Shown: positions 24,109 to 45,015 of the stretch, in pieces
Numbering within the stretch: the first letter of the stretch is position 1
How the letters are laid out: each line of letters starts with the position of its first letter
Source of the DNA: Zoogloea ramigera
GTDB lineage: Bacteria; Pseudomonadota; Gammaproteobacteria; Burkholderiales; Rhodocyclaceae
DNA length: 58,772 nt
Assembly: GCF_006539865.1 (NCBI RefSeq)
Contig: NZ_BJNV01000023.1
Span: 1 to 58,772, forward strand
Reading direction: 5' to 3'
Notes under the pieces: model-generated
What the model was told of the DNA's origin: nothing
The model's input: only the letters and a program-made list of their open reading frames with translations
Database searches by the model: none
Translations under genes and position numbers: made by a program

Positions 24109-24408
24109 TCAGGCGCGGAAGATGAAGTAAACGGCGCCTAGGATACACAGGGCAGCCCACAGATAGTCAAGCTTGAGGGGCTGCTGCATGTAGAAAATGG
24201 CAAAGGGCACGAACACCGCCAGGGTGATCGCCTCCTGCATGATCTTCAGCTGGGCGAGGTTGAGTTCCTGCGCGCCGATGCGGTTGGCCGGCACCTGCAG
24301 CAGGTACTCGAAGAGGGCGATGCCCCAGCTGACGAGGGCGGCGATGTACCACGGCGAGGTGGCCAGGTTCTTGAGGTGCCCGTACCAGGCGTTATCCGTG
24401 CGGGACAT
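24109..24408 (-). pseudogene. 3' part of interrupted DUF486 (DMT family) membrane-protein gene
   Basis: Codons from 24390 downwards encode AWYGHLKNLATSPWYIAAL... and two to three further membrane helices ending in ILGAVYFIFRA. This is the C-terminal four-fifths of a DUF486 protein. The matching N-terminus (MPIWAQTALLLAASNVFMTF) is at 45,015-44,947, across the mobile element. Joined at the shared TACCAGGCG they give a normal 114-115 residue family member. The element end supplies a replacement ATG at 24408 (M-S-R-T-D-N then A-W-Y), so a protein lacking the first helix could still be made, though no ribosome-binding site is obvious. Confidence 0.9.
24383..24391. repeat. Left junction direct repeat (attachment core or target duplication)
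   Basis: TACCAGGCG is identical to the copy at 44948-44956. Host sequence lies to its left and element sequence to its right. For tyrosine recombinases this is expected to be the crossover core. Confidence 0.88.
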
Positions 24409-24468: not shown

Positions 24469-25860
24469 ATGCCGGATTACGGTTACAAAGTCGTCTACGC
24501 TGACCCCAAGCTGCTCGCTGAAGCGGGCTTTGGGCTGCTGGCCTATCAGCCCTTCCTCCTGGATCCAGAGCCTGGCTATGCCCGGCATCCGAATCAGTTT
24601 CTGCTCGACCGTGGCCTTGGCTACTGGGATCCCAAGTGGCGAGGCGAGAAAAGGAACCCCATCCCGCCAAGCCGCATTTCCATGAAAAACTTTGCGCGCT
24701 GGCTTGCCAATGCGCTTGAGTGGGCTGACACGCGATCCATAGACCTGATGCGCGCCGATTACGTGAGTGATCTGATCGGGCGGTACCAAGAGGAAATGTT
24801 GAAGGGTATATGGTCGGCAGATAATCGTCCGCTGGCTCCTGAAACCGTTAATCCTCGGGTACAAATTGCCCTTGAATTCCAAATGTGGGCGGCTGACAAA
24901 GGATTGCGAGATCCGTTTGTTATTCCCACCACGACTGCAACCTATATTGCTGGCAGCCACGACAATAGCCGAAGCCATGAGGCTAAGGTTGTCCAATCCC
25001 GCAAAGGAAAAGTCAAGGTCAATAAGCGCACTCTGTCCTTTCCCTCGGTCGAAGAGATTGAGGCATGGCGCGAGCGCGTGCATCATCGCCCTGTGGTCGG
25101 CGCAACCGAGGGGCTGATTGTCGATCTGGTCCTTAATACCGCCATACGTCGAGAGGAAGCTGCGTGTTGGCGGGTGGATACCCTGCCACTCGACCTAAAG
25201 GACTGGAAGATTGCAAATCCCGATCAGCCCGAGGAAGTGCAATCCGTCATCGTGACGATAAAATATGGGACTAAGGGCAAGCAATACGGCATCGACGAGC
25301 ATGGCGACAAGATCGGACCGCAGGGCGAGATTCATGTCCCGCTTTGGATCGCGAGACGTATCCACAGTTATCGTAATAAAGAGAGACTGATGGCGCTCAA
25401 GCTGCAGCTAAAGAAGGGGAAGAGTCTTGAGGCGCAGCGCCGAATCATGCAGAAAGCCGTTCACCTGTTTCTCAATCCATTGACAGGCTTGCGCTACACC
25501 GGCGATCAAATATATGCGTTCTGGAGTCGAGTCCAGGGGCCGGCTCATTGGAGTCCACACCAAGGCCGAGATTGGTGGGCCTGTCGCTATTTGGAAGAGC
25601 GAATGAAGCAGCACTCCGAGTTGCTCCAGCAGGTGCTCAAGACACCCAATATCAGCAGAGAGCATTCGTTGGTGCTGGCCTTGAAAGACTGTGCAATGAC
25701 AGTAATCCAGATGGAGATTCGCCCGCAGCTACGGCACGCCAGTTCACGCACCACCGAGACGTATTTGCATTGGTTGTTCGCCAAAATGCGTGTGCCACTT
25801 GCCATGACCCAGCAATGGGTAGAGTTGGACGTGGAGGATGTCGAAGAGGACGACAAATGA
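24469..25860 (+). CDS. Tyrosine recombinase 1 of the trio (463 aa)
   Basis: The first gene of the element. It is a phage-integrase-fold protein with a complete catalytic set. Arg227 lies in NTAIRREEA. His364 and Arg367 lie in WSPHQGRDWW, an unusual spelling of H-x-x-R. His423 lies in QLRHASSRTTE, and the tyrosine nucleophile Tyr432 in TETYLHWL. Residues 60-150 look like the SAM-like core-binding domain. The C-terminus is acidic (DVEDVEEDD). Its TGA overlaps the ATG of recombinase 2. It is shorter than its two partners, as with TnpA relative to TnpB in Tn554-type elements. Start ATG 24469 has only a weak GAG upstream. Confidence 0.88.
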   Translation: MPDYGYKVVYADPKLLAEAGFGLLAYQPFLLDPEPGYARHPNQFLLDRGLGYWDPKWRGEKRNPIPPSRISMKNFARWLANALEWADTRSIDLMRADYVSDLIGRYQEEMLKGIWSADNRPLAPETVNPRVQIALEFQMWAADKGLRDPFVIPTTTATYIAGSHDNSRSHEAKVVQSRKGKVKVNKRTLSFPSVEEIEAWRERVHHRPVVGATEGLIVDLVLNTAIRREEAACWRVDTLPLDLKDWKIANPDQPEEVQSVIVTIKYGTKGKQYGIDEHGDKIGPQGEIHVPLWIARRIHSYRNKERLMALKLQLKKGKSLEAQRRIMQKAVHLFLNPLTGLRYTGDQIYAFWSRVQGPAHWSPHQGRDWWACRYLEERMKQHSELLQQVLKTPNISREHSLVLALKDCAMTVIQMEIRPQLRHASSRTTETYLHWLFAKMRVPLAMTQQWVELDVEDVEEDDK

Positions 25861-27989
25861 GCATCGGAAAAAAGAATAAGAATCACCTTAGAGAACATGG
25901 TGGCCTTACTTTGGCCGGTCAGCTTCCTGCTCCGCCCAAAAGTGACGATCCTCTGTATTTTTGGACCAATCATCCCTCAGATAACTACGCTGTCGACCTA
26001 CGCTCTTTCGCAGACGGTCAACATGAAAGTCCCCACCCCATAAGCAAAAATTCAGGTAAATGGGGAGGTGCTTACACAGGTCGTCCAAGCCTGATCGACG
26101 AGTTGGCACCCGCCGTTCAAGCGCGTGTTTCCCTTTTGAATAAAAAAAGCGCCAAACATTACGAAGGTACCCTCCGTGCATGGTGGCGCTTGTTCGATGC
26201 CTTCGAAACTACACACTTCGCCAGCGGTAAGTGTCCATCTAAAATAGTGTCGGTGAAGGATCTAAATGAACTCCATGAGGTATTCGCCAATCAACGAGGA
26301 ATAGTAATCGGCTACTTCGTAACATTTCGTAACCTCATCAACGACACGCGAAGGTTAATGAAACTGCCAGCGCTGCTCTGGCAGGCCCCGAAAAGTGCTG
26401 TCCCGTTTCGCGAGTTGATTCCGGACGATCAGGCAAGGCAAATTAAGATCGCTCTTAAGCAGGAGTGGGAGCGTGTTCGCAAGACCTGGGCACGCAACGA
26501 CGCAATCCGTGAAGTAGCGAATCGACGTGCATCAAATCAGCAGCCTTTCGCTCTCGATGAAGAGGGAGAGTGGTTGCTGAAGAACTGGCAGCATTTTCAG
26601 CGCATTCAGCAAAAAACAGGGCGTTCGCTGCCAACTGGCGAACAGATTCTGGACGGTTTTGATGCACCTAGACTGTCTAGAGACGGTTTAGAGCGGCGGG
26701 TCATGCGCTCGATCTGCTTTCCCACCCTCGAAGAGGCCGAGATCGCCTTGCACATGGCTTTAATGAACAGTGGCTGGAATTTAGGTACGCTTACCAATCT
26801 CGATGCAGAGTCGCCCTTTCTGGTGGCTCCTCATCCCAAGAATCAGGCGCAATTTGTGCTCTCCTCTGGGGTCGAAGAAGAAACCGAGGCGACACTACAG
26901 GCTTCGAAGCCACGTGCCAAAGGTAAAATGCAATTCTGCACGGGCTTGGTGAAACATACTTCAAGCCCGCCTTTCATTGTCGCGGCCTTCCTCAAGCGGG
27001 TAGCGCCGCTGCGTGAGCAGCTCAAGCAGCAATACACGGAGGCCGTGAAGGTTCTGGCACAAATGCAGAGCAGTCATGCTGACGCGAAAATCGTAGACGC
27101 ACAATACCTGAAAGCACAGCGGTTGCGCGAAGGGCTTCGCAATGTCTGGCTGTATGTCAGCTCCAAAGGGGATGTTGGTTGGCTGAATTGGAGTCAGCAG
27201 GGCAGATATAAGACACACGGCCAAGTAAAAATGGGGTCTTATCTCTGTCGGTTTATGGTTCGCCTGAACGAAAAACGTGCTGACCACGGACTTTCACCTA
27301 TTCCGAATATAACACCTTCGGACTTCCGGGATATTTACGCAAGGTGGGTTTACAAGCAGTCAGGAGGTAACATCCTCTCCGTGATGCTGGCCTTAGGGCA
27401 TTCGAGAATCGGCTCCACCATAGGCTATTTAGAAAATACCCTCTTCGCCGCAGAGAACGACGCCCATGCCCTGCGCTTCATGGCCCATCTAATCGGGCAG
27501 CTGGAGCAGGGAAGAATCGATCTCACCATCCTCGCTCAGCTCGTGCGCGACGGTGAGCTGACGCCCGAAATGGAAACGCGACTCACGAGCTACCGCCAGC
27601 TCATGAAGAGCCGCATTGGGACTGGATGCACCGATCCCAGGCGCCCACCCGAATCCGTTGCGCCGAATCATGTTGCTGGACGCCTGTGCGGAACCCATCG
27701 TTGCCTCAAAGACTGCCCGAACGCCAAGTTCCTGCCTGAGTCTTTGGACGGAATCGCTATGCGTGTGGAGGAACTGATGACAATGCTTGAGCGCCTGCCT
27801 CGTGAAACCTGGTTGCGCAGCGGGTTCGACAACGAACTTGAAGCGGGCGAATTCCTTCTCGACACGCTCTATCCCGTTGAGGATGTGCCTTCCGCCCGCG
27901 TGAAGTGGCGGAAACGCATCGAGTCCGGTGAGCATATCATCCCCGGTCTAGGTCACATCGGCCCCCGTGAATTTGTTGAGGTCGCATGA
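25857..27989 (+). CDS. Tyrosine recombinase 2 of the trio (710 aa), catalytic residues partly lost
   Basis: A long integrase-fold protein translationally coupled to recombinase 1 (ATGA). The C-terminal catalytic domain is recognisable from the ALGHSRIGSTIGYLEN block (His515, Tyr524) and the PSDFRDIYARW block (Arg491). The box I arginine position reads GWNLGTL (Asn308), and the box II histidine reads Ser488. Two of the usual active-site residues therefore appear to be replaced, suggesting a structural or accessory partner. Beyond the catalytic domain is an extra region with four cysteines (Cys591, 611, 616, 620), which may bind metal. The N-terminal 300 residues are of unknown fold. Alignment of box I is by eye, so the loss is probable, not certain. 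Confidence 0.82.
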   Translation: MSIGKKNKNHLREHGGLTLAGQLPAPPKSDDPLYFWTNHPSDNYAVDLRSFADGQHESPHPISKNSGKWGGAYTGRPSLIDELAPAVQARVSLLNKKSAKHYEGTLRAWWRLFDAFETTHFASGKCPSKIVSVKDLNELHEVFANQRGIVIGYFVTFRNLINDTRRLMKLPALLWQAPKSAVPFRELIPDDQARQIKIALKQEWERVRKTWARNDAIREVANRRASNQQPFALDEEGEWLLKNWQHFQRIQQKTGRSLPTGEQILDGFDAPRLSRDGLERRVMRSICFPTLEEAEIALHMALMNSGWNLGTLTNLDAESPFLVAPHPKNQAQFVLSSGVEEETEATLQASKPRAKGKMQFCTGLVKHTSSPPFIVAAFLKRVAPLREQLKQQYTEAVKVLAQMQSSHADAKIVDAQYLKAQRLREGLRNVWLYVSSKGDVGWLNWSQQGRYKTHGQVKMGSYLCRFMVRLNEKRADHGLSPIPNITPSDFRDIYARWVYKQSGGNILSVMLALGHSRIGSTIGYLENTLFAAENDAHALRFMAHLIGQLEQGRIDLTILAQLVRDGELTPEMETRLTSYRQLMKSRIGTGCTDPRRPPESVAPNHVAGRLCGTHRCLKDCPNAKFLPESLDGIAMRVEELMTMLERLPRETWLRSGFDNELEAGEFLLDTLYPVEDVPSARVKWRKRIESGEHIIPGLGHIGPREFVEVA

Positions 27990-30115
27990 TAAAACCCGTC
28001 GCAAACATAATTCCGCTGGACACCGAGGCCGAGGGGCGTCGTGAGGTCCTTGCACGATTCAATTCAGCAGAAATCATGCATCTTGGTCGTGACGACCTGC
28101 TCGCCGCCAAAGCTCTAGCAGGGCACGGCAGCGAGTGGGGCTGCTGGACAACCCCAAAAACGCTGATTCCAGGCGGAAGAAAATCCGCTTTGGAAATCGA
28201 CCTTAGAAAGCGTCTGCTAAGCTTCCTTACCAAAGAGCCAATTGCAGCAACTCCCCAATCTGTCCTTGTCGACGAGGGTGTGTTAACGCTCACCCGGATT
28301 GCGTTGCTTTTGAAGCTGGTGCCAACAGGGGGGCGTGGTGGTAAAAGCGCGATCCTCAAAGCGCCTAGTATCGCACATGTACTTTACGGAACCTGGCCCA
28401 AGCTTATTGCTCGCTCGCTTCGACGCAAGGCCGAGGATCCCTCCGTCGAGGGGTTGTTCCAATGCTTAACTGACACCGATGTCTCTGAGTTCAGGGCTAT
28501 AACAAAAACGCGCGCTGAGATCGATCGCCTTCACACACTCGTCGCTCGTGGGGTCTGGTTGGACGCACCGCCGCAGCCCGATATACGGCAAACCACCAAT
28601 CCAGCTACCCGAGCCGCTCCACCAATCTTCGAAACCAAGTCGGAACCCTTTCCCCCGCTGCCAGACGAATGGCTGGCTGAAATCGGCCCGCGTGTGCTAT
28701 GGGTGATCGAGGACATGGGGCCGAACCTTTTGCGATTGCTCGAGAATTTGTGTGAAGCCTTCAAAGGGCTCGATTGGGCAAAGACGAATATCGGTAAAAA
28801 CGTCTCGAAGTTAATTACGGCCAACCTTGAGCGCCATCCATGGTTGGATCGCTCGGGCAATCCTTTGAAGCCTCCATTCAATCTCACTACTGCAAACGGG
28901 AAGCATGGCGCGGACACCTGCGAATGGCCTCCATGCAATTGGGAGCACATCACTGTGCTGAGCATCGTGCTCCAAGCTGCCCACCTCTTCGTAACGCTGC
29001 TCTTGAGTGGAGGGCGTTCGGGCGAGATTGCAACTCTGAAGCAAAATTGTGTTGAAATTGGGCGCGACGGCAAGAACTATCTCTCGGGCTACACCTACAA
29101 GCTGGCCGGTAATCTGTTCGGCGATGCTAGAACTTGGCCCGCTCCCGACATTCTCGCCCAGTGCTTGGGACATCAGGCACGGCTAGCGGCGGCATGGAAT
29201 TGGTTGCCGTCTTCCTACGGCGAAGGTCTGCCACAAACCCCGCGTTTCGGGGATGCTCTGTGGATCTCGATTAGGGTGGCAGGGAAATTTGACAAAGATT
29301 TGAATCTTGATATCAATTCCGCACTTAAAAACCTCGCCCGCCGCCTCGACATGGATCCGATGCCCGGCGGCAAGAATGTCCATGCTCACCGCTTCCGCAA
29401 GACTATCGGTCGCCTTGCCGGAGTCACTCTCTTCAACTCGCCGCTAGTGCTCAAGCGCATATTCGGACATAAGTCCATAGAAATGACCTTGCATTACATC
29501 CTCTGCGATCCGGGCGTGCGGAAGGAGGCAGAAATGGTTCTTCGCGAACTGCGCATCATGCACTGCGCCGAAGCGTTGGAGGAAATACATCAGGCAATGC
29601 GCGACGGTACGGCACTACCTGATCACGGCGGCCCCGGCGCGGCCCGCCTGATTACGGCTGTGCGCAACGAAGATGTAAAACTCAACCAATCGGGGCGCGT
29701 CTGGTCTGAAGGCAGCGCCTACGACCTCTCGCTCCTGCTCACCATGCAAGGTCAAGGATGGCGGCTGATTCAGGAAAATATTATTTGCTCTAAGGTGCCA
29801 GGAGAGGATGGCCTGTGTCGGAAGATGCGATCCAAGGGCGAACCCAACACAGCTAACTGTCAGCCTCAGTGTGATAACCGTATTGTCTTTGCCCGCAAGC
29901 GCCGGGATGTGGAGTTGAGCATAGAACAGTATCTTGATATTGCACGCCAGGCTCGCGACGATGGACAACTACTGGTGCTGGCAGCGAGCATGGACAATGC
30001 GCAGGATGATTGGGTGAGTTTCCCTGATCTTGAGCGGAAGTACCGCGCAGATCCGGAGGTTCAAGCCCTGCTAGCGTTGTGCGACGAACCGGAAGGTGAG
30101 GTGGAGTCAGCATGA
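27986..30115 (+). CDS. Tyrosine recombinase 3 of the trio (709 aa)
   Basis: A third integrase-fold protein, coupled by an ATGA overlap. The catalytic set is complete: Arg344 in LLLSGGRSGEIATL, His468 and Arg471 in VHAHRFRKTIGRLAG, His495 in IFGHKSIEM and Tyr504 in TLHYILCD. A C-terminal extension of about 200 residues carries Cys pairs (ENIICSK, DGLCRKM, ANCQPQCDN), similar in position to the Cys group in recombinase 2. The N-terminal 230 residues are unlike standard integrases. Together with recombinases 1 and 2 it probably forms a hetero-oligomeric recombination complex. Confidence 0.87.
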   Translation: MIKPVANIIPLDTEAEGRREVLARFNSAEIMHLGRDDLLAAKALAGHGSEWGCWTTPKTLIPGGRKSALEIDLRKRLLSFLTKEPIAATPQSVLVDEGVLTLTRIALLLKLVPTGGRGGKSAILKAPSIAHVLYGTWPKLIARSLRRKAEDPSVEGLFQCLTDTDVSEFRAITKTRAEIDRLHTLVARGVWLDAPPQPDIRQTTNPATRAAPPIFETKSEPFPPLPDEWLAEIGPRVLWVIEDMGPNLLRLLENLCEAFKGLDWAKTNIGKNVSKLITANLERHPWLDRSGNPLKPPFNLTTANGKHGADTCEWPPCNWEHITVLSIVLQAAHLFVTLLLSGGRSGEIATLKQNCVEIGRDGKNYLSGYTYKLAGNLFGDARTWPAPDILAQCLGHQARLAAAWNWLPSSYGEGLPQTPRFGDALWISIRVAGKFDKDLNLDINSALKNLARRLDMDPMPGGKNVHAHRFRKTIGRLAGVTLFNSPLVLKRIFGHKSIEMTLHYILCDPGVRKEAEMVLRELRIMHCAEALEEIHQAMRDGTALPDHGGPGAARLITAVRNEDVKLNQSGRVWSEGSAYDLSLLLTMQGQGWRLIQENIICSKVPGEDGLCRKMRSKGEPNTANCQPQCDNRIVFARKRRDVELSIEQYLDIARQARDDGQLLVLAASMDNAQDDWVSFPDLERKYRADPEVQALLALCDEPEGEVESA

Positions 30116-30597
30116 GCGAACAGCACAAGATAGCGGCACTAAAGCGCGGCGCAGCCCGCACTGAGAAGATGTTTCACCAAGTTGAGGATGCCATTAGAGC
30201 TATAGCTGATGAGATGGCAGCCAACGATGGAATTTACCCCCGTAACGGCGGTGCTGTCTCGATGGCCGAGCTTGCCCGTCGTGCTGGGATTAACGAGGCG
30301 ACTTTCTATAAAAAGGACAACACAGCGCTCAAGGAACGTGCCTCGCTGTGGCTCGAAGCCTTAAAGAAAAAGGAAGCTGTAGGGCGTATGCGCGTCCGCA
30401 AATCCTTCCAGCAGCGTGCCGAGAGTTGGAAAGAGAAGTACGATGCCCTTCAGAATCGACACATTATTACGGAACTTCAGTTGCAACAGTTGCAGGCTGA
30501 GCACGAAAAGCTCCAGCGTGACTATGGTGCTTTGCTGGAGCAGATGCGCCTAGGTACCGCTACTAAGATCACCCCGATACCGAAGGCAAAAACCTGA
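30112..30597 (+). CDS. Small HTH/coiled-coil protein of the recombinase operon
   Basis: A 161-aa protein coupled to recombinase 3 (ATGA) and to the next gene (TGATG). Residues 45-70 (SMAELARRAGINEATFYKKD) look like a helix-turn-helix, of the kind seen in small proteins that accompany Tn554-type recombinases (TnpC position). Residues 100-150 form a Gln/Glu/Leu-rich coiled coil. It may bind the element ends or bridge recombinase subunits. I cannot assign a family with certainty. Confidence 0.75.
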   Translation: MSEQHKIAALKRGAARTEKMFHQVEDAIRAIADEMAANDGIYPRNGGAVSMAELARRAGINEATFYKKDNTALKERASLWLEALKKKEAVGRMRVRKSFQQRAESWKEKYDALQNRHIITELQLQQLQAEHEKLQRDYGALLEQMRLGTATKITPIPKAKT

Positions 30598-31091
30598 TGG
30601 CCCGGCCGTCCGTAATCCCCGGCATCAAGGCGCGCCTAGAAGAGTGGCTGGATCATTGCGAGGCCGCATATTTGTCTCAGCCGGAGGCCGCCCGCAAGCC
30701 CACCTTACCCTTGTGTCCCGATGGCAAGATCAATGTCCGCGCCGTGGCCCAAGCGATCCACCTCAAGCCAACGCAGGAGAAATATCTTTACGAACGAGCA
30801 GAGCTGACCCAGCTCATCAATTGCATCGCTGAAGGACAGGGGGTGCTCCCCATCGGCTCCAGGGCAAATCAGACCGACGCGGACAAGCAGATCAAACAAA
30901 AGATCATCCTGCACGCCAAGAACGCGCAAGAAGCTACCCAGGCGGCAACGGAAGCCGTTGCAGCACAGCAGGAGCTACTCGAGCGCATCCGGGTGCTGTC
31001 AGCCGAGCTGGCGGCATCCAACGCGGAAGTGGAACGCTTGCGCGCCCGGCTTCAGGCCGTCGAAAACGGCGTTTGGGTGTCTGTTCAATGA
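30597..31091 (+). CDS. Small helical protein of the recombinase operon, function unknown
   Basis: A 164-aa protein that starts within the stop codon of the preceding gene (TGATG) and overlaps the helicase start (ATGA). Residues 45-65 (KINVRAVAQAIHLKPTQEKY) could form a DNA-binding helix pair. Residues 105-158 form a strong coiled coil (AAQQELLERIRVLSAELAA and following). The overall plan, a putative DNA-binding half plus a coiled coil, matches the protein encoded just before it, although the sequences differ. I do not recognise it beyond that. Confidence 0.7.
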   Translation: MARPSVIPGIKARLEEWLDHCEAAYLSQPEAARKPTLPLCPDGKINVRAVAQAIHLKPTQEKYLYERAELTQLINCIAEGQGVLPIGSRANQTDADKQIKQKIILHAKNAQEATQAATEAVAAQQELLERIRVLSAELAASNAEVERLRARLQAVENGVWVSVQ

Positions 31092-33253
31092 GTGCTGGGT
31101 TTACCTTCGACAGCGACGTCACCGTGACACGCGTGGTCTCTACGCTGGAGTACGGTGCAATCTTCGTCGGAGAAACACCGGCGGGTGACAAGGTTCGGGT
31201 GCGCTACTTGGGGCGCACTGAGCTGCCCATGGTCGGTGATACGTTCGCCGTCAAAGGCCAGTTGTCGAATTGGACCGACAAGTTCCAGCGCTTACATCGG
31301 CAGGTCGAGAGCAAGGTGATGAAACGCCGGGCTGTGTTGGGCGATCTGCTTGGCCCCTTCCTGCAGCGCGTGCCAAACATCGGCCCCCAACGCGCCCAGC
31401 GGTTGATGGCGAATTACGGTCATGATCTGATTCAAGCCTTGTCCGATCCGGCCAAGATGGACGAAGTCGCTGGAGTCCTCGAACCAAACAAGCCTGCGCT
31501 CGCCGCACGGATGACCGCCCAGCTCTTTGCTGCCATGGCCGAGAAGTCGGCAGCAGATCGGGTGAAACTCGCGGAAGCGGAATTCCTAGTCGTGCTGGAG
31601 AAGGTTGGCCTGCGCGAACCTCGCGTGGCCAACCGCCTATGGCGATTCTGTGCGGGTGTCGACGCCATTGAACGCCTAAACAATAATCCCTACCTGGCTG
31701 CCCATCTCACAACCTGGAGGGTCGCGGATCGCGTCGGTAAGCTGCTGCTGCGCAAAGTTGAATTGGGAGACGATCTTGATCGTCATCCATCCCGGCTTAT
31801 GGGGGCACTAGCAAGCGTATGGCAAGAGCTGTTGCAGGAGGGTGACAGCGCAGCCATCTTGCCCGTGGTGCGTGAAAAGCTGACCAAACGCGGCGTCGAT
31901 GCTGATCTTGCGTTGCAGCATGCCGAGCAGATCGGCAATCTGCATCGCCGAGGTGAGTTGATTCGCGTGCCAGGAGCCGCATGGCTTGAGGATGAGGTGG
32001 CAAGGATGTTGAGGGAAATTGAAGCCACACCCGGTCATATCATTCTGCCGGATGAGCAGAGCCTAGACGCGCTCATCGACGATGCCGAGCGGGCTTGCGA
32101 ACTTCGCCTGACCGGCGAGCAGGCAGACGCGTTGCGCAAGCTGATGTTCCTGCCATTAGGAGTGTTGCAAGGTGGCGCCGGCGTTGGCAAGACGACAGTC
32201 ATGAAAGTCCTGGCTTACATCTGGGAGCGCCAGTGCGGCAATGTCGTATTCGGAGCCTTGGCGGGCAAGGCGGCACTGCAACTCTCGCGTGGCGCTTCGA
32301 CCCCCGACTCACCGCGCCTTGCGCACACGTTGGCTCGGTTGATTGGAATGCTTGCCCAACAGGCAGCCTTCGAGGCAGACCCTGTCAATCAACGTCGCCC
32401 CGAAATCGAGTTCAACAACAAGACGCTCCTGGTCATCGACGAGGCGGGGATGATGGACACGCCTACGTTCTATCAATTGCTCAAGTTGCTGCCCAAGGGT
32501 GTGCGGATTCTTCTGGCTGGAGATGACGGACAGCTGTTCCCAGTCGCCTTCGGCAAAATTTTCCATGATCTGGTGGAGGAGAGGTCGCGTGTCGCCATGC
32601 TGACAAAGGTTTTGCGGCAGGCGGAGGGCAGCACGATTCCTCTGGCGGCCCACCAGATCCGGAACGGCAGTGCACCAGTCCTGACCGGTTGGAAAGGCGA
32701 AACGAAAGGTGTGTTCCTTGTCGATTCAGAGCAACTCGATTCGCTACAACGCAGCGACGATTTCATGCTGATTGCAGCGCGAAGGCAAACGGTCGATTCT
32801 TGGAACGAGTGTGAATCGTTGAAGCGAAGAACGGATCGCGTGCAGATTCGGCGCCTAGGGCCTTTGGCTACAATAGCTTCAGGTGACCCTATCATCATCA
32901 CCCGAAACCGCTACAAGTACGGTCTTTTCAATGGGTTGCTTGGTACTGTAACCAACATTGACGGCGAGTTGGTGCAAGTGCATTTTGATGATGAGAAGGA
33001 GCCCCGGGAACTACCCCAGGAAGCCGAGGTGGACGTTGAATTGGCCTACGCCATAACCTGTCACAAAGCGCAGGGCAGCTCTGCTGCAACGGTGGTTCTG
33101 ATTGCGGATGACGGAATGCTGGTTACGCGGGAGTGGCTCTACACAGGAATTACCCGAGGGCGCGAGCTGGTGCTGCTCAACGCGGCTAGTCACCAAAAGC
33201 TCAGTGAGGCCGTTGCCCGGCGTGCCAACAGGACTACCGGGTTTAGGCTGTGA
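31088..33253 (+). CDS. RecD2-like superfamily 1B DNA helicase
   Basis: A 721-aa protein with the RecD2 layout. It has an N-terminal small beta domain, a helix-hairpin-helix segment (FLQRVPNIGPQRAQRLM, residues 91-107), and a long helical region. An ATPase core follows, with Walker A GGAGVGKTT (about 362), Walker B LLVIDEAGMMD (about 447), LLAGDDGQLFPV, and the C-terminal motifs AITCHKAQGSSA and YTGITRGRE. RecD2 enzymes are 5'-3' helicases without RecBC. This is the sixth cistron of the coupled recombinase operon, so it probably acts in excision, integration or replication of the element and not in general repair. No nuclease domain is seen. Confidence 0.88.
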   Translation: MSAGFTFDSDVTVTRVVSTLEYGAIFVGETPAGDKVRVRYLGRTELPMVGDTFAVKGQLSNWTDKFQRLHRQVESKVMKRRAVLGDLLGPFLQRVPNIGPQRAQRLMANYGHDLIQALSDPAKMDEVAGVLEPNKPALAARMTAQLFAAMAEKSAADRVKLAEAEFLVVLEKVGLREPRVANRLWRFCAGVDAIERLNNNPYLAAHLTTWRVADRVGKLLLRKVELGDDLDRHPSRLMGALASVWQELLQEGDSAAILPVVREKLTKRGVDADLALQHAEQIGNLHRRGELIRVPGAAWLEDEVARMLREIEATPGHIILPDEQSLDALIDDAERACELRLTGEQADALRKLMFLPLGVLQGGAGVGKTTVMKVLAYIWERQCGNVVFGALAGKAALQLSRGASTPDSPRLAHTLARLIGMLAQQAAFEADPVNQRRPEIEFNNKTLLVIDEAGMMDTPTFYQLLKLLPKGVRILLAGDDGQLFPVAFGKIFHDLVEERSRVAMLTKVLRQAEGSTIPLAAHQIRNGSAPVLTGWKGETKGVFLVDSEQLDSLQRSDDFMLIAARRQTVDSWNECESLKRRTDRVQIRRLGPLATIASGDPIIITRNRYKYGLFNGLLGTVTNIDGELVQVHFDDEKEPRELPQEAEVDVELAYAITCHKAQGSSAATVVLIADDGMLVTREWLYTGITRGRELVLLNAASHQKLSEAVARRANRTTGFRL

Positions 33254-33363
33254 CGAGCGGAAGGGGGGTCAAGGGATCGTGGAATAAATGGAGGGGACCC
33301 TTTGGGGAGTCAGCCGTTTATGCCGCGAAAGCCCTTGACGCCGCTGGAGCGACAGACGCTAAT

Positions 33364-33404
33364 GGCAGCCGGGGTGAGTTAATTTTTAACTCACCCCGGC
33401 TGCC
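33364..33404. repeat. Perfect 19-bp inverted repeat with 3-nt loop
   Basis: The arms are 33364-33382 and 33386-33404, and the loop is TTT. It lies 110 bp after the helicase stop and has no T-run beyond the right arm. It could end the recombinase operon transcript or be a structural DNA site. Confidence 0.85.
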
Positions 33405-33422
33405 TCACGGCGAGTGCGGGGT

Positions 33423-33439
33423 TTGGGGCTGAGCCCCAA
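33423..33439. repeat. Short inverted repeat TTGGGGCT / AGCCCCAA
   Basis: The 8-bp arms are separated by one base, 18 bp after the larger hairpin. The two lie in a 418-bp stretch (33254-33671) without a gene. Confidence 0.7.
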
Positions 33440-33671
33440 GGTTGTTGGCGCCGGTCTGATCTTGGCCGAGCGTGCCGGAGCCGGATTGACCAGCGAGAGA
33501 AGGTTCTTTTCGATTTGTAATCGAAGAGTTAAGTGCCGGACTCCTGATCAGTTTGAAACCGGAATCCTGCCACCAGCCTGGTCGGTTTTTGACCGGCCCC
33601 AACAGAGCGGGTTCAAACCGAGCCTGCTGAGTGAAATTTTAATCGACTCCAGAGACGGTCACAGCACCAAA

Positions 33672-33893
33672 TCACTCTGGGAAAACTAACAGATCTGATG
33701 GCGGTTTGCCCAGTGCTCTTGCCAAGCGAACAATGTTCAGTAGGGCAACGTTGCGCTGACCTCGCTCCACCCCGCCCAGATAGCTTCTGGCGAGACCACT
33801 TTCGAGAGCTAACCGCTCTTGCGACCAACCGATTTCCTTGCGTAAAGCCGCAAGTCGTTGGCCAAACAGAATGCGAGGGTCGGTTTCGTCCAC
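33672..33893 (-). CDS. XRE-family helix-turn-helix regulator
   Basis: A 73-aa one-domain DNA-binding protein: FGQRLAALRKEIGWSQERLA, then LARSYLGGVERGQRNVAL and NIVRLARALGKPPSDL. It resembles phage Cro/CI-type regulators and the controller proteins of restriction-modification loci. It is divergent from the DUF2726 gene, so it may repress that gene and itself through the 131-bp gap between them. Confidence 0.88.
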   Translation of the reverse strand: MDETDPRILFGQRLAALRKEIGWSQERLALESGLARSYLGGVERGQRNVALLNIVRLARALGKPPSDLLVFPE

Positions 33894-34024
33894 GGTCCAT
33901 ACATCGAAAAAGATGTACGGATGCTAGGTTTCCGATCACTTTGAGACCACGCTCTATAAGTGACAATCGGTCGCTCACAAAGTACGATGTCGGAAGTTCA
34001 TTTTCCGGTTCGACACTCAAGGCT

Positions 34025-34951
34025 GTGTTCAAGCGCGAAGTCTCTCCTGAAGTACGTAGGCTTCAAAATCTGCTGGGCGAAGGTGATCACGTAGGCTTTC
34101 TCGAGTCCTTCAGTGGTGGTCGTTGGCTGCATCTTGCGGCAGACAGAGATTTCCTCCGGGCTTTGGCTGGTGAGGGCTTATGCATTCTGCTTCAAGGAAA
34201 GGATCCATCTCGGCGCCTTATGCAGCGCTATGGCGACTTACTGCTCGCCGGCTTGGTACGCGCACCTGTCGAGACGGTGTGTGACCTTGCCAACCGTCTT
34301 CGCTCATCACGACTTTTGGAAGTGGCTGCCCGATTGCGCAGCAAGGAACTGAGAAGTCCTCATTCGACAACTAAGCCGATAGAGCACCCCGACTCGGACC
34401 AGTTTGCACCGCTGGCGCCAATATTTCAGGTCCGCCGCATCGTTCAGTCAACTTTCATGGTGCCGGGGCGGATGGACGCTTCGGATTTGCTTAGCGCACG
34501 TAAGTCGGTATTTCGGACCCACCAGGAACGAACCCTTCTTCAGGCTTTATCACTCCGATTCCCCGGCCTGATGGCGCTACCAAACTACCCTTTGGATCAA
34601 GTTGCCGATTTAAACCGGCTTCAGCATCAACTTGATGATGAGGCATGGCTGTATGTCAAGCGCTGCCGTCCTGCTGCCATACTGGTGATTCCCGATGAGG
34701 GCGATCCCATCGCTGCCTTTGACCTGGGGCAAGATGAGATCGAGGTATCGGCGACTCGTAGGCTTGATCAGATGAAGAAGCGTATTTTCCAAGCGATTGG
34801 TCTGCCTCTGTTCCGGTTTCGCGCTGAGTCGCCTGATTCCATCACCACGGACGAGTGGTATGCGCTCTTAACGGACGAAGTTCTGCCTAAGCTGGATACC
34901 GGATTCCGGCTCCGGAAGCGTTCTGTGACTTACGGTTTTGTGCCAGTATAA
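34025..34951 (+). CDS. DUF2726-domain protein (putative nuclease-like), start uncertain
   Basis: About 308 aa from a GTG at 34025. The C-terminal part, beginning near ILVIPDEGDPIAAFDLG and continuing DQMKKRIFQAIGLPLFRFR, fits DUF2726, a domain that resembles PD-(D/E)XK nucleases. The expected acidic residues are partly visible (AAFDLGQDEIEV). The N-terminal half is helical and unrecognised. Open reading continues upstream to 33698, but that stretch is antisense to the XRE gene and is unlikely to be translated. The ribosome-binding site is weak (CAAGG). It is a cargo gene with its own promoter and a possible defence or DNA-processing role, based on domain only. Confidence 0.65.
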   Translation: MFKREVSPEVRRLQNLLGEGDHVGFLESFSGGRWLHLAADRDFLRALAGEGLCILLQGKDPSRRLMQRYGDLLLAGLVRAPVETVCDLANRLRSSRLLEVAARLRSKELRSPHSTTKPIEHPDSDQFAPLAPIFQVRRIVQSTFMVPGRMDASDLLSARKSVFRTHQERTLLQALSLRFPGLMALPNYPLDQVADLNRLQHQLDDEAWLYVKRCRPAAILVIPDEGDPIAAFDLGQDEIEVSATRRLDQMKKRIFQAIGLPLFRFRAESPDSITTDEWYALLTDEVLPKLDTGFRLRKRSVTYGFVPV

Positions 34952-35039
34952 GCTTTTGAACTAAGCTCCTAGCCCAAGCAGATTCCGCTCCGCGTCCACT
35001 CTGTTCACTGGCAGGATTTCTCATGTATCGGGGTCTGTT

Positions 35040-36224
35040 TCAGGCCTTTACTAGCTTTGCAGAACCAGGATCGTAGATGTAGTCGGTGATGCTGCCATCC
35101 TTGATCCGATCGACGGCCTCATCAATGACGAACAGCGGAGCTAGAAACCACTCCTCCGGCTGCACTGGGTGACCGAAGCGGTCATTAATGGTGATATTCA
35201 ACCGAGCGGGTGTGAACAGCCTGTGAAACAGATTCTCCATCCGTGAGCGATTGATCCCAGCGAGCTTGTAGGTTGCAACGACCTCGACCTTCGCCAGAAG
35301 GTAGGTTGATTCGTTCTCGGCGTTGGCGATACGCGCCTCCAATCTGCCGCCGGTCACACCCACCTTGTGGATGACGTCGCGGTGCTGCGCGACGTAGGGA
35401 TGGTCGGACAGGGAGCGCAGGACGTAGATCGTGCCGCTTTCAACGTCATCGGCCTCAAACTCGCCGCCGAAAGAGAGTTGCCCGCTCTCGGGTGAGACCA
35501 GCCGCCGCGCGGCGGGGTCGTTGTAGAACGCGCGCTGGAGCGAGCGCAGCAGCAGATTGCTCTCGGTGCCGTTGGAGAAGATGAGGCGCAGGCGGCGGTC
35601 CACTTCCCCGGCGGTGGTTTTCAGCGGCTCGCCGACCTCGGCGACGTAGAGCGTGATGCCATCGAGGACGAAAAAGTCCCCGACCTCAATCGCGCGGCGG
35701 CCCGCCTCTATGGGCTGGGACTGGCGCAAGCCGGTTTTGACTTCCGTTTGCACGCGCTCGAACAACGGCCGAAAGGTCTCGAAGTCCTCGCATGGCTTGC
35801 GATCCGCGATCTCCTCGGCGGCACGCTTCTCGGCGCTGGTGCGGACATGGCGCAGGACCGTGATATCGTCCGCGTCAGCCACACCCGCCAGCTCGGCAGC
35901 CAAGTCGTCGATGTCGATGGCTTCGTCCGCCGAAGCGGCAACGGTAGGTGCCCCAGCAAGCAAGCCCTGATGGTCTAGCGGCTCAAGCAAGGCGCGGCAA
36001 TCCGGGAGCGCGCGTAGACGGTCGAGCCGCACGGCATATAGGCGCTCGAATATGTCGCGGTCTTCCCCATGCTGCGGGGCACGTCCGTGCTTCTCGGCGA
36101 AGCGTTGGATTTCCTCGAAGCCTGCGACGACGCGCTCCTCGCTGGCTGGGCGTCCACCCTTTTTCTCGGGCGGCGCGAACTCCGCAAGTTCTGCGGCGAG
36201 TTCGTCGAGATCGGCGTTACTCAT
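35040..36224 (-). CDS. GIY-YIG nuclease-domain protein
   Basis: A 394-aa protein, third gene of the methyltransferase-helicase-nuclease operon. The C-terminal GIY-YIG (T5orf172/MUG113-type) domain, about residues 275-370, has GTIYVLRSL, HKVGVTGGRLEARI with the catalytic Arg, and the conserved Glu in SRMENLFHRLF. Residues 1-150 are acidic and helical with repeated DDLAAELA and DELAAELAEF segments; the first of these lies within the extreme N-terminus. A middle domain (150-265) is unrecognised. ATG 36224 has GGAGGGG upstream and overlaps the helicase stop by 8 bp. It is likely the cleaving component of the module. Confidence 0.85.
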   Translation of the reverse strand: MSNADLDELAAELAEFAPPEKKGGRPASEERVVAGFEEIQRFAEKHGRAPQHGEDRDIFERLYAVRLDRLRALPDCRALLEPLDHQGLLAGAPTVAASADEAIDIDDLAAELAGVADADDITVLRHVRTSAEKRAAEEIADRKPCEDFETFRPLFERVQTEVKTGLRQSQPIEAGRRAIEVGDFFVLDGITLYVAEVGEPLKTTAGEVDRRLRLIFSNGTESNLLLRSLQRAFYNDPAARRLVSPESGQLSFGGEFEADDVESGTIYVLRSLSDHPYVAQHRDVIHKVGVTGGRLEARIANAENESTYLLAKVEVVATYKLAGINRSRMENLFHRLFTPARLNITINDRFGHPVQPEEWFLAPLFVIDEAVDRIKDGSITDYIYDPGSAKLVKA

Positions 36225-38271
36225 ATCGCCCCTCCGCCTTGAAGCACATGAAGGCGGCCGCACCTTCGGCCATGCGCCGCTCCCACGCATCCTGAGAATC
36301 GAGGGCGGGAATACGGCCGCGCTCCTTTTTGAACTGGACGGCCCGAATGGCCATATCCTTTGCCTCATCCGGCGTCAGGCTCGTACGCTTGGCAGAGATG
36401 GCGGCCGCAACTTGCTTCAAGCTGTCCTCGCTCATGGTCTTGGCGAGGATGGCGTAGGCTTCGCCGAATGGATTGATGCGGTCGATGAGGTCGATGTCCA
36501 GTTCGCGCACGTCCATCGCAAAACGGCGCACGCCGTCGATCAGGGCCGTATTGGGCGATCCGTCGCTCTCGCCTTCGGTGACAAGCCGCTTGGCCTGTTG
36601 CGTCAGGTTGAGGGCGGCGATGGCGTGCTGTCGCACTGCCTCCTGATCTTCGGCGTCAAGCTCAGGATACTTGTCCTTGATGATCTTGCCCATGCGAACC
36701 TGCGTCAGCTCCTCGGGCACCAGCTCGTCATCGAACAGGCCGCGCTCGATGGTGGGCTTATCCTGTACGAAGGCAGCGATGACCTCGTTCAAGTCTTCCT
36801 GGCAGATGCGCGCGGCCTCTTTGCTCTTGGGTTCCGCGAGGCCCTTGATCTCGATCTGGTAAGCCCCTGTCTGCTCATTGACGCCGATGTTGCAGCGGTC
36901 CGGATCGTAGCCATTCTCGCCATAGTCAAAGCCCGGCGTGGGGCCGCTATCGGGGTTCTTGGGCTTAAACTCAAAGCGCGGGGCCAGCACCTGCTCCATC
37001 AACAGGCTCGCAGCGATGGCCTTTAAGGTATCGTTGATGGCCTCGGTGACAGCTTCCTCGGTCGCATCCGGCTCGGCAATCAAGTTGGTAAACCTAGCGC
37101 GAGTCTTGCCCGGTGCGTCGCGGGTTGCACGCCCGATGATCTGAACGATCTCGGTCAGGCTGGCACGGTAGCCCACTGTCAGCGCGTGTTCACACCAAAT
37201 CCAGTCGAAGCCCTCCTTCGCCATGCCCAGCGCAATGATGAGGTCCACATGATCCCGGTTGTTCTTCTGCGCCGGGTCTTTCAGTGCAGTGGATACGCGG
37301 TCACGCTTCGTAGCATCGTCATCAACCAGGTCCGCAATGCGCAACACGCGGCCATCCGGACGCTTGACGAGCTGAAAACCGGTGGCGGCGTCAATGCCCT
37401 GCCACTCCCCCAGCGCCTCGATGATGTGCTCCACCTCGCGCATCTTGTCCTTCGTGCTTTCGCGCGAATTCACGTTGGGAATGTGGATGATGGTCTTCTC
37501 TGCCGGGTCGAGGACATTGAGGATGTCATCGACGTAAGGCCCGCTGTAGAAGAAGTAGCCGATGTCGAGTTGCTTCAGGTACTCGTAGCCGTTGAGCTGT
37601 TCGTAGTAGGTGTAGGTGACGGTATCGAACTTCGACTCGTCCTGCGGGGCCAGCACGGCCTCGGCGTCACCCCGAAAGTAGGAGCCGGTCATGGCGACGA
37701 TGTGGGTCTTGCCTCGCGCAATGAACTGCCCCAGGTGCAGGCCGAGCTTGTTGTCGGGGTTGGCTGAAACGTGGTGAAACTCATCGACGGCGATCATGCG
37801 ATCTTCGAACGCCTCCACGCCGTAGGCATCAACCGCGAAGCGAAAGGTGGCGTGGGTGCAGACCAGGACATCGTCGCCACTATCGAGGAACGCGCCCAGC
37901 GACTTAACCTTGCCGCCGTTGTCGTTGCCCGGCGCGTTGCACAGGTTCCACTTGGGTTCAACCTGCCAGTCGGACCAGAAGCCGTACTTCGACAGCGGCT
38001 CGTCGTTGAAGCTGGCACCGATGGACTTCTCCGGCACAACGATGACGGCCTGCTTCAAGCCCTGGTACTTGAGCTTGTCGAGTGCCACGAACATCAGGGC
38101 ACGGCTCTTGCCCGATGCGGGCGGCGACTTAATGAGCAGGTATTGCTCGCCCCGCTTCTCGTAAGCCCGCTCCTGCATTGGCCGCATCCCAAGCGCATTT
38201 GCTTTGGTCGACGCACCATTGCGGGCGTAGGTGACGGAAACGGACGGTACGGACTTGATCTTGTCGCTCAT
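36217..38271 (-). CDS. DEAD/DEAH-box SF2 helicase of the defence-like module
   Basis: A 684-aa superfamily 2 ATPase related to the Res/HsdR motor. Walker A is SPPASGKSRA (residues 49-58), and Walker B is IAVDEFHHVSA. Motif III is AMTGSYFRG, and motif VI is IVQIIGRATRDAPGK. The remaining C-terminal 270 residues are helical, with no PD-(D/E)XK nuclease motif visible, so cleavage would need another subunit. The ATG overlaps the methyltransferase stop by 4 bp, and the stop overlaps the GIY-YIG gene. The three are therefore made as a set, most simply read as modification, translocation and cleavage functions. Confidence 0.9.
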   Translation of the reverse strand: MSDKIKSVPSVSVTYARNGASTKANALGMRPMQERAYEKRGEQYLLIKSPPASGKSRALMFVALDKLKYQGLKQAVIVVPEKSIGASFNDEPLSKYGFWSDWQVEPKWNLCNAPGNDNGGKVKSLGAFLDSGDDVLVCTHATFRFAVDAYGVEAFEDRMIAVDEFHHVSANPDNKLGLHLGQFIARGKTHIVAMTGSYFRGDAEAVLAPQDESKFDTVTYTYYEQLNGYEYLKQLDIGYFFYSGPYVDDILNVLDPAEKTIIHIPNVNSRESTKDKMREVEHIIEALGEWQGIDAATGFQLVKRPDGRVLRIADLVDDDATKRDRVSTALKDPAQKNNRDHVDLIIALGMAKEGFDWIWCEHALTVGYRASLTEIVQIIGRATRDAPGKTRARFTNLIAEPDATEEAVTEAINDTLKAIAASLLMEQVLAPRFEFKPKNPDSGPTPGFDYGENGYDPDRCNIGVNEQTGAYQIEIKGLAEPKSKEAARICQEDLNEVIAAFVQDKPTIERGLFDDELVPEELTQVRMGKIIKDKYPELDAEDQEAVRQHAIAALNLTQQAKRLVTEGESDGSPNTALIDGVRRFAMDVRELDIDLIDRINPFGEAYAILAKTMSEDSLKQVAAAISAKRTSLTPDEAKDMAIRAVQFKKERGRIPALDSQDAWERRMAEGAAAFMCFKAEGRYE

Positions 38272-41066: not shown

Positions 41067-41213
41067 GGGCGTGCAGCCCTTCCTCGGGGCGTGGCCGTCT
41101 GGCTGCTATCGTTTTTCGGGGTGCTCATGTCTTGTCCTGCGTTTTTCTGGCTACGTGATCCGAGTTCCGCTCACTGCAGGCTCGCATCTCGATGGCCCGC
41201 ACGCACGTAGAAA

Positions 41214-41828
41214 TTAAGTCCGGTTGAGCAGTTTTAGCCCATCCGGACGCAGCTCGCCTTTCGGGGAGATATGACGGTAAAGTGTCTGCCGCGTGATGTC
41301 GAGTTCATGGCAAAGGTCACCGACGACGGTTTCAGGCTGCCCCATGGCTGCCATCGCTAAGCGCAACTTGGCTGGGGTCATTTTAAACGGCCGGCCGCCC
41401 TTCCGGCCTCGCGCCCGGGCGGATGCCAAGCCGGCCAGTGTGCGTTCGGCGATCAGCTCGCGCTCAAATTCAGCGAGTGCCGCGAAGATGCCGAAGACCA
41501 GCTTACCGGCCGCTGTAGTCGTATCGACCGCCGCGCCGTGCCCGGTCAACACTTTTAGGCCAATACCGCGCCCGGTGAGCTCATGGACCGTATTAATCAA
41601 ATGGCGTAGGTCGCGCCCGAGCCGGTCCAGTTTCCATACGACCAGGGTGTCGCCAGGGCGTAGCGCCTTCAGGCAGTTCGCGAGACCGTGGCGATCCTCA
41701 AGCTTGCCAGACGCCTGATCCTCGTAAAGATGTGCGGGATCGACGCCAGCCGCGATCAGCGCGTCTTGCTGCAGATCAGTGGCTTGTGAGCCGTCCGCCT
41801 TAGATACTCGCATGTAACCGATCAACAT
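41214..41828 (-). CDS. Serine recombinase (resolvase/invertase family)
   Basis: A 204-aa small serine recombinase. The nucleophile is Ser9 in IGYMRVSKADGSQ. YEDQASGKLEDRHGL, VVWKLDRLGRDL and AEFERELIAERT form the resolvase catalytic core. The C-terminal helix-turn-helix (DLCHELDITRQTLYRHIS) binds DNA. Length and motifs are those of Tn3-type TnpR or phage/plasmid DNA invertases. A res-like inverted repeat lies directly upstream of its start. No transposase gene is nearby, so it is either a leftover of a Tn3-family element or part of a multimer/cargo resolution system of this element. Confidence 0.92.
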   Translation of the reverse strand: MLIGYMRVSKADGSQATDLQQDALIAAGVDPAHLYEDQASGKLEDRHGLANCLKALRPGDTLVVWKLDRLGRDLRHLINTVHELTGRGIGLKVLTGHGAAVDTTTAAGKLVFGIFAALAEFERELIAERTLAGLASARARGRKGGRPFKMTPAKLRLAMAAMGQPETVVGDLCHELDITRQTLYRHISPKGELRPDGLKLLNRT

Positions 41829-41835
41829 CTCTTGG

Positions 41836-41865
41836 CTGTCACATATACGTTCGATTGTGTGACAG
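41836..41865. promoter_or_regulatory. Res-like recombination/operator site of the resolvase
   Basis: An inverted repeat CTGTCACA / TGTGACAG is separated by 14 bp and begins 8 bp upstream of the resolvase ATG. Further TGTC/GACA half-sites follow up to 41907. Size and position fit resolvase subsites. Confidence 0.6.
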
Positions 41866-41914
41866 TGTGCGACAAGAAACGTCTGCTGTCAAAAACTGTC
41901 ACTTAACAAGTCAT

Positions 41915-42127
41915 TTATTCTAAGTGTTGCAAAGGGTCTGTTCGACTCATTAAGTGATGTGAGTTCCGAGGATATCTTCTTGGCAAACCGGGTGTCTTGA
42001 CTTCGGCGTGTCGCTCCTCGACCTCCAATGTTTCTTGGAAATGGAACGTAGTGTCGTTCACGTGGAGCTCGCTTTGCAGGCTGACGTGGATCGGACCCTC
42101 AACGTCGCCCGCGCCGGAGGTGAGCAA
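41915..42127 (-). CDS. Small ORF of unknown status (70 aa)
   Basis: A 70-codon reading frame (starts MLTSGAGDVEGPIHV) upstream of the resolvase. Composition is protein-like and acidic, with no recognisable domain and no clear ribosome-binding site. It may be a real small protein, or a fragment left from an earlier transposon insertion. The opposite strand is no better. Low confidence. Confidence 0.25.
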   Translation of the reverse strand: MLTSGAGDVEGPIHVSLQSELHVNDTTFHFQETLEVEERHAEVKTPGLPRRYPRNSHHLMSRTDPLQHLE

Positions 42128-42252
42128 ATGAGAACAGTTCCCGAGCCGACACTTTTACCGCACGATGGCCGTCCCTCCACCTGAACACTGTTTCGGAATA
42201 AGCGCTATGAGCCCGTGCGCTACAAACTGCACGCTATGACAATCCCGGTAGA

Positions 42253-43344: not shown

Positions 43345-43345
43345 A

Positions 43346-44947: not shown

Positions 44948-45015
44948 TACCAGGCGAAGGTCATGAACACGTTGGACGCCGCGAGCAGCAGCGCCGTCTG
45001 GGCCCAGATCGGCAT
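44779..45015 (-). pseudogene. 5' part of interrupted DUF486 gene, fused to element sequence
   Basis: The host part is codons 1-23 (MPIWAQTALLLAASNVFMTF then AWY), 45015-44947, forming the first membrane helix. Reading then continues out of context into the element (TKRNTCPVSQNP...) and stops at 44779, giving a 78-residue chimera. The start codon overlaps the folK stop (TAATG), as expected for an operon partner of folK. The remainder of the gene is at 24390-24109. Confidence 0.9.
44948..44956. repeat. Right junction direct repeat (attachment core or target duplication)
   Basis: TACCAGGCG is identical to 24383-24391. Element sequence lies to the left and the host DUF486 codons to the right. 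Confidence 0.88.

Follow-up and report, generated by a model that had tools for sequence, protein, structure and literature searches.

GMT operons (GmtY-GmtZ-GmtX) are recombinase operons with overlapping genes. Tn554 (tnpA-tnpB-tnpC) and the recombinase-in-trio (RIT) elements are site-specific elements with several tyrosine recombinases, and Tn554 also carries the helper TnpC. The archetype RIT encodes three recombinases of 315-410 amino acids (aa), all with the catalytic tyrosine (PMC3414803, PMC10214605). GInt islands carry ginABCD, which encodes three recombinases and a TnpC-like protein, all four essential for excision and integration. They insert into genes or next to them and are bordered by imperfect direct repeats (10-17 nt), the operon is directed inward and a transcript outward, and one recombinase lacks the first arginine (Bardaji et al. 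2017, PMC5385486). The strand-biased circularizing integrative elements (SEs), reported in Gammaproteobacteria only, have the order intA-tfp-intB-srap, in which the degenerate protein is second, and their circularisation is marked by a 6-bp fingerprint (Idola et al. 2023, PMC10214605). In SEs, and in three of the seven GInt strains examined, circles arise but no empty site was detected, and copying is therefore suggested; in the portions cited, neither paper names an element-borne helicase or copying enzyme, and the word helicase does not occur in their main text (PMC10214605, PMC5385486). Here we describe a 20.6-kb island in a 58,772-nucleotide stretch of Zoogloea ramigera DNA (contig NZ_BJNV01000023.1; the whole stretch is called the window, or W), which carries at its left end an operon of six genes, labelled YR1, YR2, YR3, S4, S5 and HEL in their order. 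L and G numbers denote other loci and genomes.

We found that the six-gene set is made of two modules, a core of genes 1-4 and an optional cassette of genes 5-6. The cassette, S5-HEL, also occurs in one unrelated GMT operon, on an Acidiphilium multivorum plasmid. The four-gene plan of the core is already in print (GInt, SE). Among the papers listed by our searches, we recognised none that joins these recombinase operons with a helicase; a prior description in the original GMT paper is possible. The original prediction had seen in the six genes a distinct recombination machine; the core plan proved to be known, while the point about the helicase survives in the form of a recombinase-linked cassette.

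Six coupled genes in two modules

All six open reading frames (ORFs) lie on the + strand of the window, at 24469-33253:

24469..25860, + strand: YR1, 463 aa, tyrosine recombinase with the full catalytic set R227, H364, R367, H423, Y432
25857..27989, + strand: YR2, 710 aa, recombinase-fold protein in which Asn308 replaces the Box I Arg and Ser488 the HxxR His
27986..30115, + strand: YR3, 709 aa, large tyrosine recombinase with the full set R344, H468, R471, H495, Y504
30112..30597, + strand: S4, 161 aa, probable helix-turn-helix and coiled-coil protein
30597..31091, + strand: S5, 164 aa, gene 1 of the optional cassette, with a long C-terminal helix
31088..33253, + strand: HEL, 721 aa, RecD2-type superfamily 1B (SF1B) helicase, gene 2 of the cassette

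Relatives were collected by scanning genome contigs with a YR3 alignment. This gave nine loci, from which we excluded L011 and L012, with a short YR3 motif only, and L009, which is the same record as L002. The window, the retained scan loci, a Microvirga plasmid and an added genome (G696) make up the nine core loci: W, L004 (a metagenome-assembled genome, MAG, of Aeromonadaceae), L005 (Azonexus), L006 (Methylococcaceae MAG), L007 (Dechloromonas MAG), L008 (Rhizobacter MAG), G696, and two Microvirga loci that are 80-87% alike (VF16, L002, and BT688, L010).

YR1-YR2-YR3-S4 stand in the same order in all nine core loci. S5 and HEL are complete in three (W, L005 and L008), and two remote lineages, W/Azonexus and Rhizobacter, keep all six genes in order at 28-50% identity. 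Two further loci retain a stump of S5, which in L007 comprises 25 residues and then a stop, and in L006 about 43 residues and then divergence; the L006 contig ends ~750 bases past this point, and HEL may lie beyond its end. Because these stumps remain, the sequences suggest that the cassette was once present in L006 and L007 and was later lost. Neither S5 nor HEL was found within the flanks examined of L004, G696 and both Microvirga loci (4/9). The claim that the six genes act as one fixed machine fails on these counts, with the cassette complete in just 3/9 loci. The set had also been expected to recur at element ends across genera; the coupled operon does so, with differing neighbours, but S5-HEL is an optional part of it. 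Absence of the helicase from relatives and a match to a described element family had been named beforehand as findings that would speak against the prediction, and each holds in part, since some relatives are without the helicase and the four-gene plan is of GInt/SE style.

All five joints of the window overlap (ATGA four times, TGATG once), as had been noted at the outset. A mechanical ORF list puts the starts of YR2 and HEL upstream, at 25548 and 31073 (both TTG); the overlapping ATGs are likelier to be the true starts because relatives share the start position. YR1/YR2 and YR2/YR3 show the identical 4-base overlap in five out of five loci (W and L004-L007), and so does YR3/S4 in four of these, the exception being L004 with a 2-base gap. 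The 4-base overlap of S5/HEL is found in 4/4 (W, L005, L008 and the Acidiphilium plasmid), with GTG as the start in L005. The L008 operon has an 8-base overlap at YR1/YR2 and a 10-base gap at S4/S5, and joints are looser in G696 and both Microvirga loci. The operon overlaps exceed chance because most joints recur in relatives.

The searches indicate that the core family is rare and patchy. BLAST with YR2 returned the window genome's own copy as the sole relative among 199 genomes of the family and 369 of the class. A YR1 profile detected one full member beyond W's own in 399 genomes of the order, and no member beyond W in 369 genomes of the class; in 149 genomes of the Azonexus family, the Azonexus copy was the only full member. 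Agreement between the genomes of this set and those of the 199-genome family set suggests that the window's host is of the Azonexus family. Short YR1 matches in G641, G705, G822, G957, G1053 and G1107 were rejected, being fragments or generic recombinases. A 42-residue stretch in a further genome of the order (L030, 1480-1605) shares 67% identity with YR1 and is probably what remains of a relative. A YR2 homologue of 784 aa (hhalign 35%) and a YR3 homologue of 700 aa (hhalign 99%), both remote, are encoded on a Pseudomonas aeruginosa megaplasmid (L003, 4939-9389), with no YR1 directly upstream. In Microvirga VF16 (L002, 5949-7963), YR2 ends early and YR3 is without a start codon near that stop, so this copy may be broken; the BT688 copy is longer. 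Kiwa-like genes just upstream of the Microvirga YR1 (L002, 2845-4316) are probably outside the element.

The S5-HEL cassette and its GMT-borne counterpart

By profile comparison, HEL is RecD2-like and not RecD2 itself. It matches TIGR01448 (helicase_RecD2) at E=4e-71 and aligns over most of that model, and its best PDB-profile match is 3e1s RecD (E=2e-37). We place it outside RecD2 proper because its 240 bits fall below the TIGR01448 cut-off of 500; it also groups apart, with the cassette helicases. The call of a RecD2 helicase thus holds as to type and to the position inside the operon, although not at the level of the family cut-off. The model of S5 has a helical N-terminal part and a 63-residue helix. 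S4 and S5 had been described as two coiled-coil proteins, which we correct: the S5 model is helical with this long helix, and S4 has weak helix-turn-helix matches.

We searched 72,556 plasmid records. HEL reached 407 bits to the A. multivorum plasmid (L129), the next being ≤148 bits among the 29 other matches listed of 2,647 records, and S5 matched the same plasmid as its only record. S5 and its Acidiphilium counterpart align with an hhalign probability of 99% (E=6e-18). Used as plasmid queries in turn, the Acidiphilium S5 and HEL found themselves only, at the limits used. On this plasmid GmtZ (VPA1269 family) precedes S5-HEL and GmtX follows it, and ATGA overlaps occur at the S5 start, at S5/HEL and at HEL/GmtX. 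In three other GMT operons examined (of 140 records with a GmtZ match), GmtX follows GmtZ directly, without the cassette. Because the overlapping pair sits inside a GMT operon, we regard S5-HEL as tied to recombinase operons and not as random cargo. A plasmid-borne recA lies 3' of this operon (L129, 13973-15013).

The window set is not itself a GMT operon. Profile comparison detected no relation of YR1, YR3 and S4 to the Acidiphilium recombinase, GmtZ and GmtX, respectively (YR2 was not compared). The GmtZ model NF047926 has no match in the window's genome and reached only YR3 of L008, at E=0.079; no GMT family is among the NCBIfam matches of the six window proteins. The likeness is confined to an overlapping-gene recombinase operon, one example of which holds the S5 and HEL homologues.

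The four cassette helicases (W, L005, L008 and Acidiphilium) form one group (100/100) against 12 viral RecD-like proteins, in a tree with long branches whose viral members were picked from 80 and which has no cellular RecD2. Between W and L005, the ratios of nonsynonymous to synonymous differences (pN/pS) are 0.27 for S5 and 0.21 for HEL, next to 0.13 for YR1, 0.15 for S4, 0.32 for YR3 and 0.37 for YR2; with synonymous sites near saturation, the two cassette genes seem to be constrained by purifying selection, at a level intermediate between YR1/S4 and YR2/YR3. The helicase family of HEL is, as far as these searches go, a general one with nothing close in the viral contigs scanned: the best 80 of 104 loci all have ≤31% identity, and the best phage match is 136 bits among 5 matches listed of 242 records. 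We discarded a viral origin, since YR2, YR1 and S5 had no relative in the viral contigs searched with them. Among 398 genomes, the only S5 accepted was W's own. Three weak matches were dropped, two of them (G1323, G363) with housekeeping or unrelated neighbours by eye and one (G1266) within a 1018-aa frame, where tblastn with the six window proteins was empty.

The core operon and its island

The catalytic residues of YR1 and YR3 are invariant in 8/8 aligned sequences (the alignments are without G696), and both match the integrase family phrog_216 (E=1e-4 and E=7e-10, respectively); YR3 also has a four-Cys cluster. In the eight aligned YR2 sequences, the Box I Arg position is Asn in all, and the HxxR His position is Ser in seven and Gly in one. 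YR2 retains R491, H515 (the His of LGH) and Y524 and has a C/H cluster near the C-terminus. Its boxes were assigned by recognising known motifs, and a YR2-YR3 profile alignment supports the second half only. The AlphaFold model of YR2 has a mean predicted local distance difference test (pLDDT) score of 69.6, and the first 27 of 60 Foldseek matches are tyrosine recombinases (best E 0.0036, low TM-scores). We read YR2 as a degenerate recombinase-fold protein, and of the three tyrosine recombinases first proposed, YR1 and YR3 stand as complete ones. S4 matches TetR_N (E=4e-4) and DUF6262 (E=0.016), each below the Pfam cut-off, and is probably a helix-turn-helix and coiled-coil protein of the TnpC/GinD/Srap type. 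We take its likeness to TnpC from gene position and the DUF6262 match only.

The island (24383-44956) splits a DUF486 (DMT_6) gene and has a 9-bp repeat at each border. Its borders, the split gene and its end motifs are:

24383..24391, no strand: attL core TACCAGGCG, left copy of the 9-bp repeat
44948..44956, no strand: attR core TACCAGGCG, right copy of the 9-bp repeat
24109..24408, - strand: 3' part of the DUF486 gene (PF04342, E=1e-39), with an in-frame start from the island's left end
44948..45015, - strand: 5' part of the DUF486 gene (MPIWAQTALLLAASNVFMTFAWY), joined to the 3' part in sister loci L014-L024
24392..24418, + strand: conserved left end TTAT-N17-ACTTGC, with ACTTGC 56 bp before YR1
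44834..44841, + strand: CACTTGCC copy 1, near the right end
44880..44887, + strand: CACTTGCC copy 2, near the right end
44928..44935, - strand: CACTTGCC copy 3, inverted, 12 bp inside the right core

In the 11 sister loci (L014-L024) the site is uninterrupted: the left flank (to 24391) is contiguous with the right (from 44948), and the flanks share nine bases, TACCAGGCG (sequence inspected for 9/11). The island is therefore 24383-44956; this empty-site comparison was made for the window insertion alone. Among other genomes of the genus, the left flank is alignable only to 24390/24391 in 20 of 22, and the remaining two give one partial left-flank match and short pieces only. The sister L014 has the whole DUF486 gene (PF04342, E=4e-46). 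In the window, the residues before AWYGHLKN in the truncated DUF486 reading frame are island-encoded, and the left ends of L004 and L007 are likewise predicted, by mechanical ORF calling, to give the truncated gene an in-frame start. G+C content is 0.53-0.64 inside the island and 0.64-0.73 outside (2-kb windows), with the operon at the island's left end.

TTAT-N17-ACTTGC stands with the same spacing at the left ends of W, L004, L005, L006 and L007, and ACTTGC is at -56 to YR1 in the first four; junctions outside W were inferred from the end of host-gene homology. Matches to the motif in L038/L041, L130 and L135 were set aside as chance-like. Three of the four copies of CACTTGCC in W fall within 102 bp, inside the terminal 123 bases at the right. 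Four copies per window are ordinary (reached in 20 of 100 shuffles), so that the clustering alone is notable for a motif that was picked post hoc.

The target is DUF486 in W, L004 and L007, and comM/YifB in L005 and L006 (5122-6408 and 3805-5102, respectively). The competence-related gene comM/YifB is a frequent island site. W and L004 group in the YR2 tree (85/87) and in the YR3 tree (100/100), and L007, also in DUF486, lies outside their group in the YR2 tree. L005 and L006 group in the YR2 tree (79/92) and not in the YR3 tree, where the grouping is not rejected (p=0.445). The YR1 data reject a clade of L005 and L006 (p=0.02) and do not reject one of W and L004 (p=0.09). These few loci tentatively point to YR2, perhaps together with YR3, as the determinant of the target. 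Between the split DUF486 and the intact YR1 of L007 (5083-6481) there is a degraded second YR1 start (6272-6457), with a left-end motif at 5366, and two related elements seem to be stacked at one site.

From these features we would call the island a site-specific integrative element of GInt/SE style and of its own family. Like GInts, it is a cargo island with a coupled set of three recombinase-type genes and one small TnpC-like gene at one of its ends, and it has short direct repeats (9 bp and perfect here against 10-17 nt), a coding-gene insertion and empty sites elsewhere. This likeness is drawn from the published description of GinABCD; S4 and GinD share size, position and a weak helix-turn-helix. 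Two differences stand out. The degenerate protein is gene 3 in GInts (GinC, next to ginD) and gene 2 here, and GInts have a short AT-rich 3' end, whereas G+C is 0.50-0.59 over 44450-44949, which is cargo-like. With the SEs the island shares the order of an ordinary recombinase, a degenerate recombinase-fold protein, a large recombinase and a small protein, with similar sizes, 467/773/731 aa in pSEA1 and 463/710/709 aa here. RIT elements and Tn554 are poorer fits: RIT recombinases differ in size from these three proteins, one of which is degenerate, and Tn554 has tnpA-tnpB-tnpC only, with no counterpart of the degenerate protein, which here makes a third recombinase-fold gene.

The genes 3' of the core differ between loci: restriction-modification in W, copper-efflux-type in L004 and a TIR protein in L007. 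In L004 and L007, where right ends were not found, they are likely cargo. In the window the cargo comprises:

33254..44700, no strand: XRE regulator, protein with a weak DUF2726 match, GIY-YIG protein (T5orf172), helicase-like protein
33254..44700, no strand, continued: MmeI-like type IIG restriction-modification enzyme, resolvase, patatin-like phospholipase
42253-43344: protein with weak PADLOC matches and no Pfam match

The MmeI-like enzyme overlaps the helicase-like gene and adjoins the GIY-YIG protein (35040-41066), possibly as a linked restriction system. The protein at 42253-43344 has weak PADLOC matches to PDC-M48B and resembles, by eye, a metallo-beta-lactamase fold; with the patatin-like phospholipase (to 44482) it is a possible defence pair.

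Possible roles of the cassette in element movement

We consider it highly probable that YR1 and YR3 move the element by site-specific recombination and that YR2 and S4 assist them. By analogy with the work on GInts and SEs, YR1 and YR3 would cut and join the element ends, YR2 would bind DNA or serve as a scaffold, as a recombinase-fold subunit that lacks full catalysis, the TnpC-like S4 would steer the reaction, and the excised or copied circle would re-integrate in a conserved gene. We moderately favour the overall reading of a GInt/SE-style element with a cassette that aids circularisation, copying or replication, and we hold with similar, moderate confidence that S5-HEL acts in DNA processing during element movement. 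S5 could be a DNA-binding adaptor that brings HEL to the recombinase-DNA complex, and HEL would unwind DNA from a recombinase-made nick or junction and help to circularise, copy out or finish replication where host helicases do not suffice. More tentatively, S5-HEL may be a transferable unwinding module, acquired by unrelated multi-recombinase elements for helicase-driven copy-out. In such a process a recombinase would nick one strand, S5 would load HEL at the nick, and the element would be displaced and copied into a circle, leaving the donor site occupied.

Several observations weigh against this account of core and cassette. Comparison by hhalign with the single sequences of one pSEA1 recombinase set, taken as that of an SE from its gene pattern, was unconvincing (probabilities of 26.7% for IntA, 0.3% for Tfp, 12.4% for IntB and 0.1% for Srap, the last for a gene annotated as bacterioferritin comigratory protein and possibly the wrong one), and we rejected SE membership by sequence. 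No PDB structure matches the S5 model significantly, and a simple scan found no sigma-70 promoter-like site near YR1. The GMT-linked S5-HEL is known from one record only, and the portions of the GInt and SE literature cited contain no experimental effect of S5 or HEL on recombination. The cassette also stands at the cargo boundary and is incomplete or not found in 6/9 loci, as dispensable cargo would be.

This last point leads to the explanation that competes best, namely that S5-HEL is defence or anti-defence cargo whose place by the operon merely secures its expression. The type IIG enzyme of the window and the TIR protein 3' of the L007 core agree with it, and HEL is matched by the candidate defence helicases typeIV_RecD (E=3e-42) and PDC-S68 (E=2e-39) of PADLOC, although these matches span the shared helicase core. 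The Acidiphilium cassette lies inside the GMT operon, not behind it, and the accepted S5 relatives from the plasmid, viral-contig and 398-genome scans are all beside recombinase genes (S5 genes found via their recombinases were not counted for this linkage). We judge the cargo explanation rather unlikely. Quite improbable is a cryptic replicon, in which HEL would be the replication helicase of an autonomous circular or plasmid-like stage: HEL does resemble Ti-type relaxase helicases (TIGR02768, E=9e-39) and the GMT example is plasmid-borne, but none of the eight cargo proteins scanned was recognised as a replication initiator, relaxase or partition protein (the scan did not extend to small ORFs). 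A single obligatory machine of all six genes, for which the conserved overlaps and the ordered six genes of two remote lineages might speak, is the least credible, as it is already largely refuted by L004, G696 and Microvirga, unless these are dead elements, with S5 stumps only in 2/9 loci and with published GInts that work with four genes (PMC5385486).

Returning to a GInt/SE-style element with a helicase cassette, we note that S5-HEL, present in two unrelated recombinase operons, is a direct candidate for an element-borne helicase in the movement of GInt/SE-type elements. Related cores with and without the cassette (W or Azonexus versus the Aeromonadaceae MAG) make such a role testable. If the copy-out reading is true, these elements would represent a helicase-assisted class of tyrosine-recombinase elements.

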